Of a stretch of 64,000 bases of DNA, positions 24,327-33,994 are shown one piece after another. The first letter of the stretch is position 1. Every line of letters begins with the position of its first letter. Below the pieces are notes generated by a model, which saw only the letters and a list, made by a program, of their open reading frames with translations, was not told the DNA's origin and searched no databases. A program made the translations under genes and the position numbers. The stretch covers positions 797,536 to 861,535 of the forward strand of contig NZ_CP089291.1 in assembly GCF_022818495.1 (NCBI RefSeq). Direction: 5' to 3'. The stretch is from Fodinisporobacter ferrooxydans. Its GTDB lineage: Bacteria; Bacillota; Bacilli; Tumebacillales; MYW30-H2.

Positions 24327-25691
24327 CTATAAATGAGCAAAAATACTTACAAATTTATACAACAAAAAAGTATAGACTGCCTCTAGGCCAGCTTTAATTG
24401 TTGCAAAACAGCTTCAATAGGTACTTGATTCTTTGCAGATTCATAAATCCATTGGACGTAGTCCACTTTTACTTGCTTTCGTACCATTATAAGTCCATCT
24501 CCAAATTTTGAAGGCTGACCTAAACCGATGGTGCAATATAAATGTGTCAGCGAAAGTAGTATCCAAAGTCGTTCTATTGCACGAATGGAACGAACTTGAT
24601 ATCCATCAAAACCTAGATTTTGTTTAGTTTGCCGAAAGAAAATCTCGATCGGCCAACGGCGACTATAATAATCAAGGATGGTTTGTGTCTCTAAGGATAC
24701 ATCTGTACACAGAAACGCATGTAATGCTTTCGAATTTTGAAACGCATCCAATGGCCAGCAAAGGAGTACCACCGCATTCTCAATGCCATTTAAAGCTCCT
24801 TCATATCGATACACCCAATAGGTAGATCCGTTTACGGTCACGAGGCAAACGTCCTGTTTGGTCACATACGATGCGAAGGTACTAATTGGAACTCGAATCC
24901 CTTTGGGATAGACAATGCGGTTTGTTTTGAGTGCACCAATTAAATGGTATCCTCGCTCTGCATAAGTATTCATAAGTTTTGGGCATGTATACCATGAATC
25001 GACCAATGCATATCCAGAATAAAGTGGAATCGGCATGGTTTTGGCCAAATCACAAGCGTCATCAATTTTGCTTTGGCTCGATTTATCATAACGGTGAATA
25101 TCATGAATGAGAGAATGTTCTCCACATTGAACAATCGTAGCCTGAACTTGATGACCCCAAACGGTTTTTCCTTTTAAGTGGGAATGATGGTAGTCTGTTT
25201 GTTCGATTGGGTGTTTTGCCTGTGACGAAGGCTTTGTCTTCTCACTAACAGTATCATCATGAATCACAAAAATAGGCTGTTCTGTTTGTTTGGCATGAGA
25301 CAAAACAAATGAAAGCGATTCTTGTTTTACAAGTCTTTGGATATACGATTCGTCCCAAACACCATCCGAGAGAAAGTGTCCAATGGATGTTCGATGACAT
25401 GAACTCCATTCCGCTATATCTACCACTTTACCACGATACCCTTTAGCGGTAGCTGCAATAAAAAATTCTTGAATATGCCGCAAGGCAGGCTTTGAAACAT
25501 ATAAGGATAGCCTACGGCTTTTTAAGAAATTGATTATTGCTTCGTGGTTTGGTATGGTAGTATTATGAGACATTTGTGAATCCTCCAGGTATGGTTTTGT
25601 GTGGTAACTTAATCTTATACCACAGGAGAGGACAAATGTCTCTATTGTTTTTAATTGGTAAAGAAATGGAAGCGAATTTGCTCATTTATAG
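24327..25691 (-). mobile_element. IS4-superfamily insertion sequence, 1365 bp
   Basis: The element is bounded by a perfect 15-bp inverted repeat (CTATAAATGAGCAAA at 24327-24341 and its complement at 25677-25691) and flanked by a 7-bp direct repeat (CTTTCAA). It holds one intact transposase gene on the minus strand, so it looks complete and recent. A 7-bp duplication would fit some IS4 subgroups (I recall 7-8 bp for the ISPepr1 group), but the subgroup needs a database check. It inserted between the flg-operon terminator and fliW. Confidence 0.9.
24383..25573 (-). CDS. IS4-type DDE transposase
   Basis: A 396-aa transposase. The first catalytic Asp is probably in FVIHDDTVSEK, the second in YALVDSWYT, and the Glu in YSRRWPIEIFFRQTKQ, which fits the IS4 signature Y-x2-R-x3-E-x6-K exactly. 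The N-terminal part (TSIGHFLSDGVWDESY) resembles the IS701/IS4-type DNA-binding region. The reading frame is intact from ATG to stop. The gene reads in the same direction as the fliW-csrA genes downstream. Confidence 0.93.
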   Translation of the reverse strand: MSHNTTIPNHEAIINFLKSRRLSLYVSKPALRHIQEFFIAATAKGYRGKVVDIAEWSSCHRTSIGHFLSDGVWDESYIQRLVKQESLSFVLSHAKQTEQPIFVIHDDTVSEKTKPSSQAKHPIEQTDYHHSHLKGKTVWGHQVQATIVQCGEHSLIHDIHRYDKSSQSKIDDACDLAKTMPIPLYSGYALVDSWYTCPKLMNTYAERGYHLIGALKTNRIVYPKGIRVPISTFASYVTKQDVCLVTVNGSTYWVYRYEGALNGIENAVVLLCWPLDAFQNSKALHAFLCTDVSLETQTILDYYSRRWPIEIFFRQTKQNLGFDGYQVRSIRAIERLWILLSLTHLYCTIGLGQPSKFGDGLIMVRKQVKVDYVQWIYESAKNQVPIEAVLQQLKLA

Positions 25692-27353: not shown

Positions 27354-28982
27354 TTACTGCACCATACTATTGATCGTGTTGAACATCTGATCCATAACGG
27401 ATACCATTTTCGCTGCAGCGTTATACGATTGTTGGTATTTGATCATATTCGCCATTTCTTCATCAATCGAGACACCGCTGACAGATTGACGCTGGTTGCT
27501 AATTTGATTCACTAATGCCTGTTGATTCGTCACATTTTGGTTTGCTTGCTGCCCTTGAATCCCGATTTGATCGATAATGGCATTATAATAACCGGTGACC
27601 GTTCCTTGCGGATATGTAATTCCGTTCGCAGGGGCATTGGAAAAATCCAATACACTGCTGCCGAAATTGGATGCCATCGCGGCCAGATCGCCATTTCCCG
27701 CTACTGCTTGCAAATTCCCATTTGCGTCCGGTTGCGCTTGTGTTGTTGCAGCAATGTTCCGAATATCACTTGTAATAGCATCGCTCACTTTAATATTGGC
27801 AGCAGTAAAAGTAGAACTCCCGTCGGATGTCTGAAAAAAAGCAGGGGCATTTGTCGACGGGCTTTGCGCTGTATACCCTAACTGATGCAAACCGTTAAAT
27901 CCTGCTACTGTAATAGTTGTTCCAGTTGGCAATTCACCGTTATATTTTGCGGGAATATTTGAAACAGGATCACCTTTTGAAAGTTTCGTACCATCCGGCA
28001 ATACTGCATCAAACGGCATACTTGTCGTATTGGCCGGAAACGCATAAGTATTCGGCAAACTTACTTGTGCGTTTCCCTGTACAAAAGTATTGACCATTGT
28101 GTTTAACATGCTCTGATAATTGGTGACATTTGCAATCGAGTCAGAGTATCCCTTCAACTCCCCGCTCGCAACCGGAATAGACAGATTCCCGGAAGCATCC
28201 GCCGTTAGCTGTGTAACTGTCGGTGTTGCAGTACCGGAGGCATTGACAACTGTTTGCCCGCCAATTTTCACGGTATATGTACCGTTTCCTTCAGCAACAG
28301 TGACATCCGTCAATTTTGACAACTGATCCAACGCTTCATCCCGCTGGTCACGCAAATCATTGGCCTTATCGCTGCTGGATGCCTCTATCGTATTGATTTG
28401 CTGAGTTAAGCCGGAAATTTGCTGAAGATACACGTTTACCTGTTTTACATCCGCCTGCACCCCGTTCAGCAGATTTGTTTGTGTATCCTGCAAACTTTTC
28501 GCCGTACTATTCAGCGTATTTGTCAGTGTTTGAGCACGCTCCTGAACAACAGATCGGGCAGACGGATCATTGGAAGATTGCGGGTTTGCCAACTGTGCCC
28601 ACGCATTAAAGAATTGTGTCATAACCGTACTTATCCCCGTATCGGAAGGTTCATTGAAAACTGCCTGAATCTGATTCATCGTCGTTTGATTCTCCGTCCA
28701 TTGGCTTAGAGTGCTGTTATTATCCCTATACTGCTGATCCAAAAAGGAACTCCGAATGCGGGTAATATCGGACATCACTACACCTGTGCCGATTTGCCCG
28801 GCAGTCTCGGAGCGGGTCAGTCCCGGCTCAAACATGGGGGTATCTTCCGTAAGGTCGACGCGCTGGCGGGAATAGCCCGGCGTATTCGCATTTGAGATAT
28901 TGTGGCCGGCTGTATTCATCATTGCCTCATTGGCAAATAATGCGCGTTTTAATAATTCGAGTCCATGAAATGTTGAAATCAC
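27354..28982 (-). CDS. flgK: flagellar hook-associated protein 1
   Basis: A 542-aa FlgK. The N-terminus has STFHGLELLKRALFANEAMM and the rod/hook motif NTAGHNISNANTPGYSRQRV; the C-terminus has GVSIDEEMANMIKYQQSYNA, both diagnostic of hook-filament junction proteins. GTG start with AGGAGG 11 bases upstream. The length is close to that of other Bacillales proteins. Confidence 0.95.
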   Translation of the reverse strand: MISTFHGLELLKRALFANEAMMNTAGHNISNANTPGYSRQRVDLTEDTPMFEPGLTRSETAGQIGTGVVMSDITRIRSSFLDQQYRDNNSTLSQWTENQTTMNQIQAVFNEPSDTGISTVMTQFFNAWAQLANPQSSNDPSARSVVQERAQTLTNTLNSTAKSLQDTQTNLLNGVQADVKQVNVYLQQISGLTQQINTIEASSSDKANDLRDQRDEALDQLSKLTDVTVAEGNGTYTVKIGGQTVVNASGTATPTVTQLTADASGNLSIPVASGELKGYSDSIANVTNYQSMLNTMVNTFVQGNAQVSLPNTYAFPANTTSMPFDAVLPDGTKLSKGDPVSNIPAKYNGELPTGTTITVAGFNGLHQLGYTAQSPSTNAPAFFQTSDGSSTFTAANIKVSDAITSDIRNIAATTQAQPDANGNLQAVAGNGDLAAMASNFGSSVLDFSNAPANGITYPQGTVTGYYNAIIDQIGIQGQQANQNVTNQQALVNQISNQRQSVSGVSIDEEMANMIKYQQSYNAAAKMVSVMDQMFNTINSMVQ

Positions 28983-29001
28983 GAATCAGAAAGCCTCCTC
29001 A

Positions 29002-29499
29002 CTATGCCTTGAAATCATACAAAGATGTTTGTTGCTTGCCATAGCTGCCCGCATCTGCGGGTTGATATGTAACATCTTGCGGATCCGGATAGAGCAATTG
29101 CATCGTATGATGGACGAATTGCAACGATTGGTATAAAAGACGCGCATTCAAGTCATTTTTCTCTTTTAATTCTTGATAGATTTTTGGAAATTCATTGTTC
29201 AGGTGGTTCATTCGTTTTTTTTCGTCTTCGTTTCGTGTGAGTATTTGCAGTCTTGACAATGTAAGATCTTGCTCGGGGATTCGCTCTTGCATGGCTATAA
29301 ATTTCAACTCTTGCAGACGCTTTTGTTCAAGGGAAGACAGGAGTTTAAAATATCCCATTTCTTCTTGCACAATCCGATCCAATTCTTTTATATCGCCTTG
29401 AATCAATACATCTTTTTTCCGGTCAGCCAATTGCAACAATTCCACATGTGCATCATATAGTTTTTCAACTGTATCCAATAACAAGGCAAGTTGGCTCAT
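29002..29499 (-). CDS. flgN: FlgN-family flagellar chaperone (YvyG)
   Basis: A 165-aa helical protein that in other bacteria keeps FlgK and FlgL soluble for export. Pattern: LLDTVEKLYDAHVELLQLAD-RKKDVLIQGDIKELDRIVQEE, and LNDLNARLLYQSLQFV-type helix near the end. GGGGGAG lies seven bases before the ATG. Position between flgM and flgK equals yvyG of Bacillus subtilis. Confidence 0.88.
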   Translation of the reverse strand: MSQLALLLDTVEKLYDAHVELLQLADRKKDVLIQGDIKELDRIVQEEMGYFKLLSSLEQKRLQELKFIAMQERIPEQDLTLSRLQILTRNEDEKKRMNHLNNEFPKIYQELKEKNDLNARLLYQSLQFVHHTMQLLYPDPQDVTYQPADAGSYGKQQTSLYDFKA

Positions 29500-29554
29500 T
29501 TCTTTTCTCCCCCAATTGAACGGCTTGGCCGTACTATAGATCCATGCGTCATGT

Positions 29555-29722
29555 CATTAAAGAGGATGTTCAAAAAGTAGTCAAAACTCCACGGCGGATT
29601 GCTTTGCCGAATCCCAAAAAGGCTTACTCATGTACCAAACACGTACACTCCGTTGCCTTTTCGTGCTTCGGCTTCGCACTCCTTGTGTCTTACTTAACCA
29701 CTTTTTGAACACATACATTAAA
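29555..29722. repeat. 154-bp MITE-like element, copy 1, with flanking direct repeats
   Basis: The element core (29562-29715) has near-terminal inverted repeats (TGTTCAAAAAGTAGTCAA versus TGTTCAAAAAGTGGTTAA) and is flanked by CATTAAA at 29555-29561 and 29716-29722. A copy of the same length and nearly identical sequence lies at 33835-33988. It codes for nothing. It inserted between flgN and flgM, splitting that intergenic space to about 350 bp. Confidence 0.85.
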
Positions 29723-29854
29723 AAAGATCCATTTAGAAAAATAAATGAAAAAAGATCAATCAAAAATCGTTCAATTCCATTTGTTCGTTCGCTTCGTCCC
29801 GATTTATGGTTTGTCTTTCTATAAACTTTGGAACTATATCAATACATAAAAGTC

Positions 29855-30160
29855 TCAAGATTGAGATTGTGAAAATGCGTCATAGACCTTCCGTGCCACT
29901 TCCCGTGCATCCACGGCATATGTTCCATCTTGAATCGATGACTTTAAATCATGGATTCGGTTTTCCCGATTCGCACGTTCTGCTTGTTGTACTGCCGATT
30001 CCTCTGCATCCGGCGTCTGCGCCAAGTGAATCGCTTCTTCGGAAATCGACACTTGATCTGTCTTCCGTTCCGATTTTATCTGATTTGAGTCCCGACCGGA
30101 ATAGGAATGCTTCTGATATGGATTGACGCGCTGGACAGGCTGCGATTCATTGATTTTCAC
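29855..30160 (-). CDS. flgM: anti-sigma-28 (sigma-D) factor FlgM
   Basis: A 101-aa protein that holds sigma-D inactive until the hook-basal body is complete. The N-terminus KINESQPVQRVNPYQKHSY resembles Bacillus FlgM, and the C-terminal sigma-binding part has DQVSISEEAIHLAQ and RIHDLKSSIQDGTYAVDARE-VARKV. GTG start with GGGGGA about seven bases upstream. It controls the flagellin promoter found at 23.5 kb. Confidence 0.92.
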   Translation of the reverse strand: MKINESQPVQRVNPYQKHSYSGRDSNQIKSERKTDQVSISEEAIHLAQTPDAEESAVQQAERANRENRIHDLKSSIQDGTYAVDAREVARKVYDAFSQSQS

Positions 30161-30210
30161 AAATATTCCCCCTTGACCGTTCCTTCTTGATCTCTTGTGT
30201 TTATCCCAAA

Positions 30211-30251
30211 CAAAAATGCCGATCAGATCGTATTACATTCTGTATCGGCAT
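30211..30251 (-). terminator. terminator after yvyF
   Basis: On the minus strand ATGCCGAT pairs with ATCGGCAT around a 20-base loop and is followed by TTTTTG. It separates the comFC-yvyF unit from the flgM unit. Confidence 0.7.
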
Positions 30252-30356
30252 AGATTATTGAAATGGTAACGGGTAAATTCTTTTAATATGCGTTAAATTA
30301 ACTCGTTTCCTCAATTATGCTTCTCTTTTCATATAGTATCGTTACTTTTCTTACTG

Positions 30357-30782
30357 CTAAAATTTTTTATCAAAATCATTTTTTATATTCGAATAATAGC
30401 CGGATTTCGATTGATTATACATTTTCATTTCCCGATCTGCCGCTACTGCTTCTTTCAGTTTTTGCACATGCTGCAGCGAGTTTTTCATACAATCATCACA
30501 AATCTTGCCTTTTGTAATAGGTGCTCCGCAACGCTCGCATTCATAGTGCAGGCCCGGATAATGGTAAGCAATCAAACGGCCTTCCCGCACAAATTTGTAA
30601 ATCGTGCCAAGAGGAACCTCTGTCGCTTCCGATACCTCGTAAGGCTTGGCATTCTTATGTTCGCGCAGATAATCGCGAACGGTATGAAACGCTTCATCTT
30701 CCGCCCGAATGCAATCCGGACAGACATCCCGCAACGCTTTATTAAACAACTTCCCGCACAGAGGACAGTTTGCTAATGCCAT
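30357..30782 (-). CDS. yvyF: flagellar operon protein YvyF (zinc-ribbon type)
   Basis: A 141-aa protein with two Cys pairs at the N-terminus (ANCPLCGKLF, VCPDCIRAEDE), a helix-turn-helix-like segment (ATEVPLGTIYKFVREGRLI) and a second pair of Cys pairs (YECERCGAPI, ICDDCMK). This is the TIGR03826-like YvyF family found between comFC and flgM. I place the start at 30782, where the conserved part begins with GAGGAG upstream; the frame extends 54 codons further without support. Function unknown; it may regulate the flg operon. Confidence 0.88.
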   Translation of the reverse strand: MALANCPLCGKLFNKALRDVCPDCIRAEDEAFHTVRDYLREHKNAKPYEVSEATEVPLGTIYKFVREGRLIAYHYPGLHYECERCGAPITKGKICDDCMKNSLQHVQKLKEAVAADREMKMYNQSKSGYYSNIKNDFDKKF

Positions 30783-33263: not shown

Positions 33264-33806
33264 TTATTGTACTTTTTGTTTCAGTACGTGTACGTCCAAT
33301 TGCAGGTTGCCAACGGTGTTATTTACAAACCGGATCGTATTGTCCAAGTCAATCACTCGCTTTTCCAACACGTTGACCTGAAATTTAACATCATCTACTT
33401 TTTCAGATATCGCATCCATATGTTTTACAACTTCCTGAAACCCGTCATTTACATATTTTTTCATTCGACCTTCTGATTCTTTCACAGATTGATCTACATG
33501 CTTCTGCATACGGCCTTCTGACTCTGCCAGAGATTGATCTACATACTTCTGCATCCGACTTTCAGACTCTATCAGAGATTGATCTACATACTTTTGCATC
33601 CGGCCTTCTGACTCTGCCAGGGATTGATCTACATACTTCTGCATCCGGCCTTCTGACTCTGCCAGGGATTGATCTACATACTTCTGCATCCGGCCTTCTG
33701 AGTCTTTTAGAGATTCATTCAATCTTCTTTCAAATGTTTCTCCCAGCCGCTTTTCACTTTCACGCAACAAATTTGCCATTTGTGAAAGCAAAATGTTTTC
33801 GTCCAT
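33264..33806 (-). CDS. coiled-coil protein with 15-residue repeats
   Basis: A 180-aa protein of unknown function. After a helical head (DENILLSQMANLLRESEKRL) it has five to six copies of a 15-residue unit (SEGRMQKYVDQSLAE) and a coiled-coil tail (VDDVKFQVNVLEKRVIDLDN). The units are encoded by 45-bp DNA repeats of which two are identical, so copy number can change. GGAG lies nine bases before the ATG. The pattern suggests an elongated fibrous or filament-binding protein, similar in style to Bdr-like or phage tail-fibre-chaperone-like coiled coils. Confidence 0.7.
   Translation of the reverse strand: MDENILLSQMANLLRESEKRLGETFERRLNESLKDSEGRMQKYVDQSLAESEGRMQKYVDQSLAESEGRMQKYVDQSLIESESRMQKYVDQSLAESEGRMQKHVDQSVKESEGRMKKYVNDGFQEVVKHMDAISEKVDDVKFQVNVLEKRVIDLDNTIRFVNNTVGNLQLDVHVLKQKVQ
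33466..33690. repeat. tandem repeat, five 45-bp units
   Basis: Five head-to-tail units of 45 bp starting at 33466, 33511, 33556, 33601 and 33646. Units four and five are identical; the others differ at several sites. A partial sixth follows. They code for the 15-residue repeats of the coiled-coil protein. Confidence 0.92.
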
Positions 33807-33828
33807 AATCTCACGCTCCATCAACAAT

Positions 33829-33994
33829 CTATAAGAGGATGTTCAAAAAGTAGTCAAAACTCCACGGCGGATTGCTTTGCCGAATCCCAAAAAGGCTTAC
33901 TCATGTACCAAACACGTACACTCCGTCGCCTTTTCGTGCTTCGGCTTCGCACTCCTTGTGTCTTACTTAACCACTTTTTGAACACGCACTATAA
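33829..33994. repeat. 154-bp MITE-like element, copy 2, with flanking direct repeats
   Basis: The core 33835-33988 is the same length as the copy at 29562-29715 and nearly identical, in the same orientation, with the same TGTTCAAAAAGT inverted ends. It is flanked by CTATAA at 33829-33834 and 33989-33994, a different target from copy 1, so the two copies transposed independently. It lies between the coiled-coil gene and the J-protein gene. Confidence 0.85.

Follow-up and report, generated by a model that had tools for sequence, protein, structure and literature searches.

A probable MITE of an IS1182-like transposon group, with a conserved folded core, between flgM and flgN of Fodinisporobacter ferrooxydans

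The 155-bp repeat that separates flgM from flgN in Fodinisporobacter ferrooxydans is, with a probability of about 0.88, a miniature element (MITE) of an IS1182-like group, which would be mobilised by a DUF772 and DDE transposase encoded elsewhere, and whose interior is a conserved folded core. This assignment, made from comparison of sequences, follows from the finding that transposase-bearing relatives share the ends of the element and its 5-bp target duplications; the IS1182-like group is thus probably what moves the MITE. The element is of a known kind, newly placed with this group, and the unusual conserved core is the more interesting part.

The element and its copies in the genome

The window (the whole stretch of 64,000 nucleotides that was analysed, positions 797,536 to 861,535 of contig NZ_CP089291.1) contains two copies of the element, which are 97% identical and lie 4273 bp apart, start to start (Table 1). 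The original prediction of a MITE-like, non-autonomous element between these two flagellar genes, with a same-length copy nearby at a different target repeat, is borne out by Pfam identification of both genes, by the TATAA found on both sides of the second copy, and by the number of copies, their target duplications and the transposase-bearing relatives described below. Its details need some amendment: the element is real, but its length is 155 rather than 154 bp, and the CATTAAA noted on both sides is indeed present, but is not itself the duplication, which is 5 bp long genome-wide and is seen here as TTAAA, with an extra A on one side. The leading C of the right-hand CATTAAA is the last base of the element. 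The ends are inverted, as was proposed, but they are not identical: in the consensus they read GAGGA-TGTTCAAAAAGT and GTGCG-TGTTCAAAAAGT, an asymmetry confined to the outer 5 bp, and at the 5' end of its minus strand copy 1 has GTATG in place of GTGCG.

Table 1. Features of the flgM-flgN locus and of the second copy (window coordinates)
Feature	Position	Strand	Details
MITE copy 1, 155 bp	29562-29716	minus (better-folding strand)	
Left target duplication, TTAAA	29557-29561		inside CATTAAA 29555-29561
Right target duplication, TTAAA	29718-29722		inside CATTAAA 29716-29722; follows extra A at 29717
Folded core of copy 1	29584-29695	minus	covariance model R1, 35.0 bits, E 1.1e-6 (window)
Tip hairpin motif GGAGTGTACGTGTTTGGTACATGAGTAA	29624-29651 (genome 827159-827186)	minus	
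MITE copy 2, 155 bp	33835-33989	minus	TATAA duplication at 33830-33834 and 33990-33994
R1 match in copy 2	33857-33968	minus	31.5 bits
flgM	29855-30160	minus	Pfam PF04316; upstream of element
flgN	29002-29499	minus	Pfam PF05130; downstream of element

The gap between flgM and flgN is 355 bp, and would be 195 bp without the element and one duplication. No gene is housed in the element; the open reading frames of the window that run across the copies are of 60-64 aa and extend beyond the element ends. The better-folding strand of copy 1 is the sense strand of flgM-flgN, and a consensus scan of 28900-30400 found no terminator-like site there and one promoter-like site, fewer than shuffled sequence gives. 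In this position copy 1 would add a stable hairpin to any read-through mRNA, and flgN and the downstream genes that, from their sequence, we take to be flgK and flgL would be expected either to be unaffected or to show slight polarity or altered processing. Elsewhere in the window lie an IS701-family transposase gene (24383-25573, minus strand; 210 bits against a cut-off of 150) and, beside MITE copy 2, a coiled-coil-like open reading frame (33264-33827) with tandem 45-bp repeats, each of 15 residues, at 33402-33761.

The source genome is complete (4.86 Mb), and the count of copies and target repeats that had been proposed as a check yielded 94 core copies: the interior motif, with up to three mismatches allowed, occurs 45 times in forward and 49 times in reverse orientation, and its control not at all. 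A search for the exact ends gave 194 matches, while the reversed pattern gave 0, so neither ends nor motif are a chance finding; the 40 of these 194 candidates that were scored were all at least 98% identical. Examination of the DNA around all 94 core copies revealed two recognisable ends in 89, of which 82 are exactly 155 bp long. A perfect 5-bp target duplication flanks 72 of the 89, and 85 have one with at most a single mismatch. The perfect duplications all begin with T and have A or T as second base, while 67 of the 72 end in A; since 40 of them are also preceded by C and 42 followed by G, the target is CTWWWAG-like. The duplication is accordingly of a TWNNA-like type, often within CTWWWAG. 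The median distance of the 82 full 155-bp copies from their consensus is 2 bases (range 0-10), which argues for a recent burst, and such a burst would have left the approximately 94 core-bearing copies in this genome. Shorter derivatives that lack the core, and yet keep the ends and the duplication, are common when judged by eye, and insertion can therefore probably proceed without the core. In genome G000, ends-only derivatives (for example at L069, L072, L084, L086 and L092) have their joints at short shared sequences, which suggests repeated internal deletion.

A probable transposase-bearing partner

The original prediction had left the family open and proposed a search for a transposase with matching ends; that search led to IS1182-like elements, and the family can now be named. 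There are 36 matches to DDE_Tnp_1 in the genome, 30 of them with loci, and a matching end was present at one locus: among 31 transposase loci scanned for the element ends, it was L209 that led to the insertion sequence (IS). The partner transposase is encoded by an intact open reading frame of 438 aa with the Pfam domains DUF772 and DDE_Tnp_1. Its best NCBIfam model is that of the IS1182 family (NF033551), but the score of 99.6 bits is below the cut-off of 270, and the group is for this reason called IS1182-like rather than assigned to IS1182. The element holding this one intact frame has lost its right end. A second long copy in the genome, of 1632 bp, is frameshifted and has the ends GAGCCTGTTCAAAAAGC and GAGTCTGTTCAAAAAGG, of the form GAGCC/GAGTC-TGTTCAAAAAG, with TTTAA and TATAA as flanks; the ends of the IS and of the MITE in this genome thus differ at their outer bases.

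A scan of GTDB genomes located 50 related IS loci, with 1.6-kb elements ending in GAGNN-TGTTCAAAAAG, in Alicyclobacillus fastidiosus (many copies), Halalkalibacterium halodurans, Paenibacillus, Aquibacillus, Lysinibacillus, Aneurinibacillus and others; the H. halodurans entries of 1780 bp span an assembly gap. Both ends and both flanks could be read in 30 copies, and the 5-bp duplication is perfect in 26 of these; almost always it has the form T...A, the exceptions being ATATA and TTTAT. Resemblance between IS and MITE ends within single genomes is illustrated by Aquibacillus salsiterrae, where the IS ends are GAGCG/GAGGA and the MITEs end in GTGCG/GAGG[AT] (GTGCG ends are present at seven loci, and the tip motif at five of the seven), and by genome G252, where GAGGTTGTTCAAAAAG is common to an IS end and to MITE ends, and GAGGT is found on both. 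The DUF772 and DDE transposase would, on this evidence, recognise ends of the form GNGNN-TGTTCAAAAAG, insert at CTWWWAG-like sites with a 5-bp duplication, and mobilise the MITE in trans.

Co-occurrence across genomes gives no statistical support to this pairing, since close relatives of the transposase (E <= 1e-60, 8 of 398 genomes of the class) and the tip motif (44 of 398) are found together in 2 genomes, those with the two highest motif counts (85 and 69), when about 0.9 would be expected. IS-rich A. fastidiosus gave one match to the end pattern and no MITE, and its own IS ends themselves fail the pattern used. Two other candidate parents were rejected: a Tn3-family transposase gave one short match only, and no transposase was seen at solitary ends considered as parent ends.

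The folded core and its relatives

The whole element folds as a single rod, at -66.7 kcal/mol on the minus strand (z -8.4) and -47.5 on the plus strand, and in 10 of 11 family representatives the corresponding strand is likewise the lower in energy. Consensus folding by RNAalifold gave 49 pairs for a first set of 11 sequences and 51 for a set of nine 178-bp elements. Pairs with double changes number 11 in the first set (mean of shuffles 4.8), 15 in the 178-bp set (8.0) and 7 in the tip (4.6), while cells with double changes number 21 (5.9), 34 (10.8) and 30 (10.3), the last in the tip region, for which 15 sequences were aligned, and in all three sets the covariation score was reached by none of 500 shuffles. 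A further measure, of additional pair types, was equalled by 496 of 500 shuffles in the tip and by 146 of 500 in the first set, and so did not stand out in either; in the 178-bp set it exceeded the shuffles weakly (20 of 500 equalled it). Adjoining the tip is an asymmetric internal loop in which GGA faces GA, and all 15 sequences of alignment A3 have a G-U pair after it; at the same place the Aquibacillus elements, by eye, have A-U. A search against Rfam 15 gave no gathering match in the window and none up to E 5 in six element loci, and the 10 matches in further loci were to rRNA, tRNA, a ylbH leader and a T-box that holds an inserted core. The original prediction had set a conserved structural RNA against a mobile element; the interior is indeed conserved and folded, yet it lies inside a mobile element. 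The rod-shaped hairpin with its GGA/GA loop is common to related MITEs in other genera and is probably older than the burst.

In a search of 61 genomes (its own and relatives) the window element had matches in its own genome and, with 76% identity over the full length, in G003, but in no other; collections of plasmids and phages gave no element of the window type. Of the 398 genomes of the class, 28 have the end pattern. Two other families of the class, and Paenibacillus records, have 178-bp elements in which these two types of end enclose a different interior. Several related genomes of one family carry, at the same site, a hairpin remnant of about 60 bp with these ends (L111, L112, L115-L117 and L121); one MITE of this kind (L285) lies between 5S and 23S rRNA in a locus ordered 16S-5S-23S; and in several genomes cores form head-to-tail arrays with a spacing of about 181-203 bp (L309-L313 and L317).

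The tip motif, GGAGYGTASN{3,8}STACRTGAGYA, is found in the Bacilli in 13 of 145 genera, with 669 matches (counts added by hand) against 1 for the reversed control. The covariance model R1, built from 12 cores of other genera, matched all 16 element-type loci, with 19 matches up to E 1, whereas the 16 IS loci and the 4 loci of other transposases gave none. In 40 further loci it matched only two, both with full copies, and missed a diverged copy in L053. In L298, a T-box leader upstream of proB has received a related core, near 1461-1566 on the minus strand, where R1 scores 79.9 bits and the T-box itself 86.8 against a gathering score of 93; R1 scores 51-53 and 34 bits on 5S-like units behind rRNA genes. 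These units (L287, L314-L316 and L286) are tandem, of about 309 bp, and join a 5S-like 3' half to the core. As the T-box and 5S-like loci were found by the motif, which is itself part of R1, it is the comparison of flanks with the motif left out, using six elements, that supports the T-box and L287 cases: the flanks of the T-box insertion and of L287 match those of L278, L285 and L284 above all 1000 shuffles, that of L286 does so for L278 only, and three type-B flanks gave no clear match.

In viral contigs, many of them GC-rich, the motif occurs at 27 loci. By an estimate the pattern could give roughly a dozen chance matches there, so these loci were judged by R1, which contains the motif and which matches 23 of them at E 1e-4 or better. 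Eight of the viral contigs were without an Rfam match at gathering level. DNA similar to two of the viral-contig cores comes from Sphingobium, Shinella, Agrobacterium and Pseudomonas plasmids. In the GC-rich viral contigs L336, L338, L344, L345, L354, L355, L357 and L359 the core lies next to the end of a gene that, by eye, seems to be the same in all. Elements of about 138 bp at L348 and L343 have ends near GGTCTGTACGAAA and a related tip, with similar DNA on Pseudomonas plasmids, and CTAG stands beside the ends of that in L348.

The nature of the core

It is tempting to suggest, as a tentative reading and one well short of an even chance, that the core is an undescribed, widely distributed structured module of single-stranded RNA or DNA with a GGA/GA hairpin, which is carried by MITEs that differ in their ends, in Firmicutes as in Proteobacteria, which has found its way into a T-box leader, into 5S-like units and into phage genomes as well, and which is a bacterial counterpart of a SINE head, spread by borrowed transposases and with a fold advantageous to the mobile lineage. 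Changes at paired positions among the 82 copies comprise 16 distinct G-U and 16 distinct A-C events, so that the present copies give no sign of RNA-level purifying selection, while between families the mismatches of symmetric loops, in folds limited to Watson-Crick pairs, are G-U 13 times and A-C 4 times (p 0.049, with related sequences). Taken together, the two counts would place selection on the mobile lineage and not on each copy; the fold would then be maintained, as single-stranded DNA or RNA, in the lineage as it moves. On the first count, a host RNA gene was rejected as the main explanation. The reading in which the repeat is mainly a functional RNA of regulation or processing, its mobility is incidental, and the host retains operon copies for the use it makes of their hairpin, draws on the strong minus-strand fold, on its recurrence on the same strand in most family representatives, on the excess of double-change pairs in all three sets and on the related core in the proB leader. 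It is nevertheless improbable, given the neutrality of pairing changes and the lack of a significant sense bias: between co-directional genes the two orientations number 35 and 27 (p 0.37), or 21 and 12 when longer open reading frames are used (p 0.16).

MITEs are palindromic by nature, and the fold could therefore be a by-product of DNA palindromes that serve in cruciform formation or transposase binding, rather than of an RNA or single strand. The equal numbers of G-U and A-C changes among present copies agree with this, but it is made doubtful by the G-U pair kept beside the asymmetric GGA/GA loop throughout alignment A3 (although in the Aquibacillus elements, by eye, this pair is A-U), by the much better folding of one strand in most families, and by the preponderance of G-U over A-C between families. 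That the element is a classical MITE, an internal deletion derivative of an IS1182-like element with its interior taken from the parent, would fit its ends and target, which are those of the IS. This is very improbable, because the tip motif is absent from 300 kb of IS loci, R1 finds nothing in the 16 IS loci, and the non-coding regions of the IS have no visible similarity to the MITE interior. The core itself, being missing from IS loci, probably did not come from the IS.

With MITEs in general the present element has in common its short length, the absence of genes, many near-identical copies, inverted ends, a duplication of fixed length and a matching transposase-bearing IS; it differs in its interior, a conserved folded core that recurs in several genera and seems not to derive from the IS. 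REPs, to our knowledge, have neither target duplications nor IS ends, both of which are found here. Like REP/BIME palindromes (see PMC3733652), the element is a small intergenic hairpin in many copies. The bcr1-bcr3 repeats (PMC6542083, PMC3446304, PMC2267715) are of about 150 bp, in tens to 130 copies with a TTTAT motif; they are described as MITE-like repeats that can fold, that often lie within UTRs and that are limited to the Bacillus cereus group, and by these descriptions they resemble the present element in size, copy number, TTTAT and folding. The open-licence papers searched contained no description of the element or of its core.

For F. ferrooxydans, the finding gives a family name to a repeat that accounts for about 94 insertions in the genome, and links it to a transposase that can be tested. 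If the conserved core reflects real single-strand biology, it would explain why MITEs of distant bacteria that are otherwise unlike one another keep the same fold; a defined motif, a covariance model and a genome list are now available for testing this.
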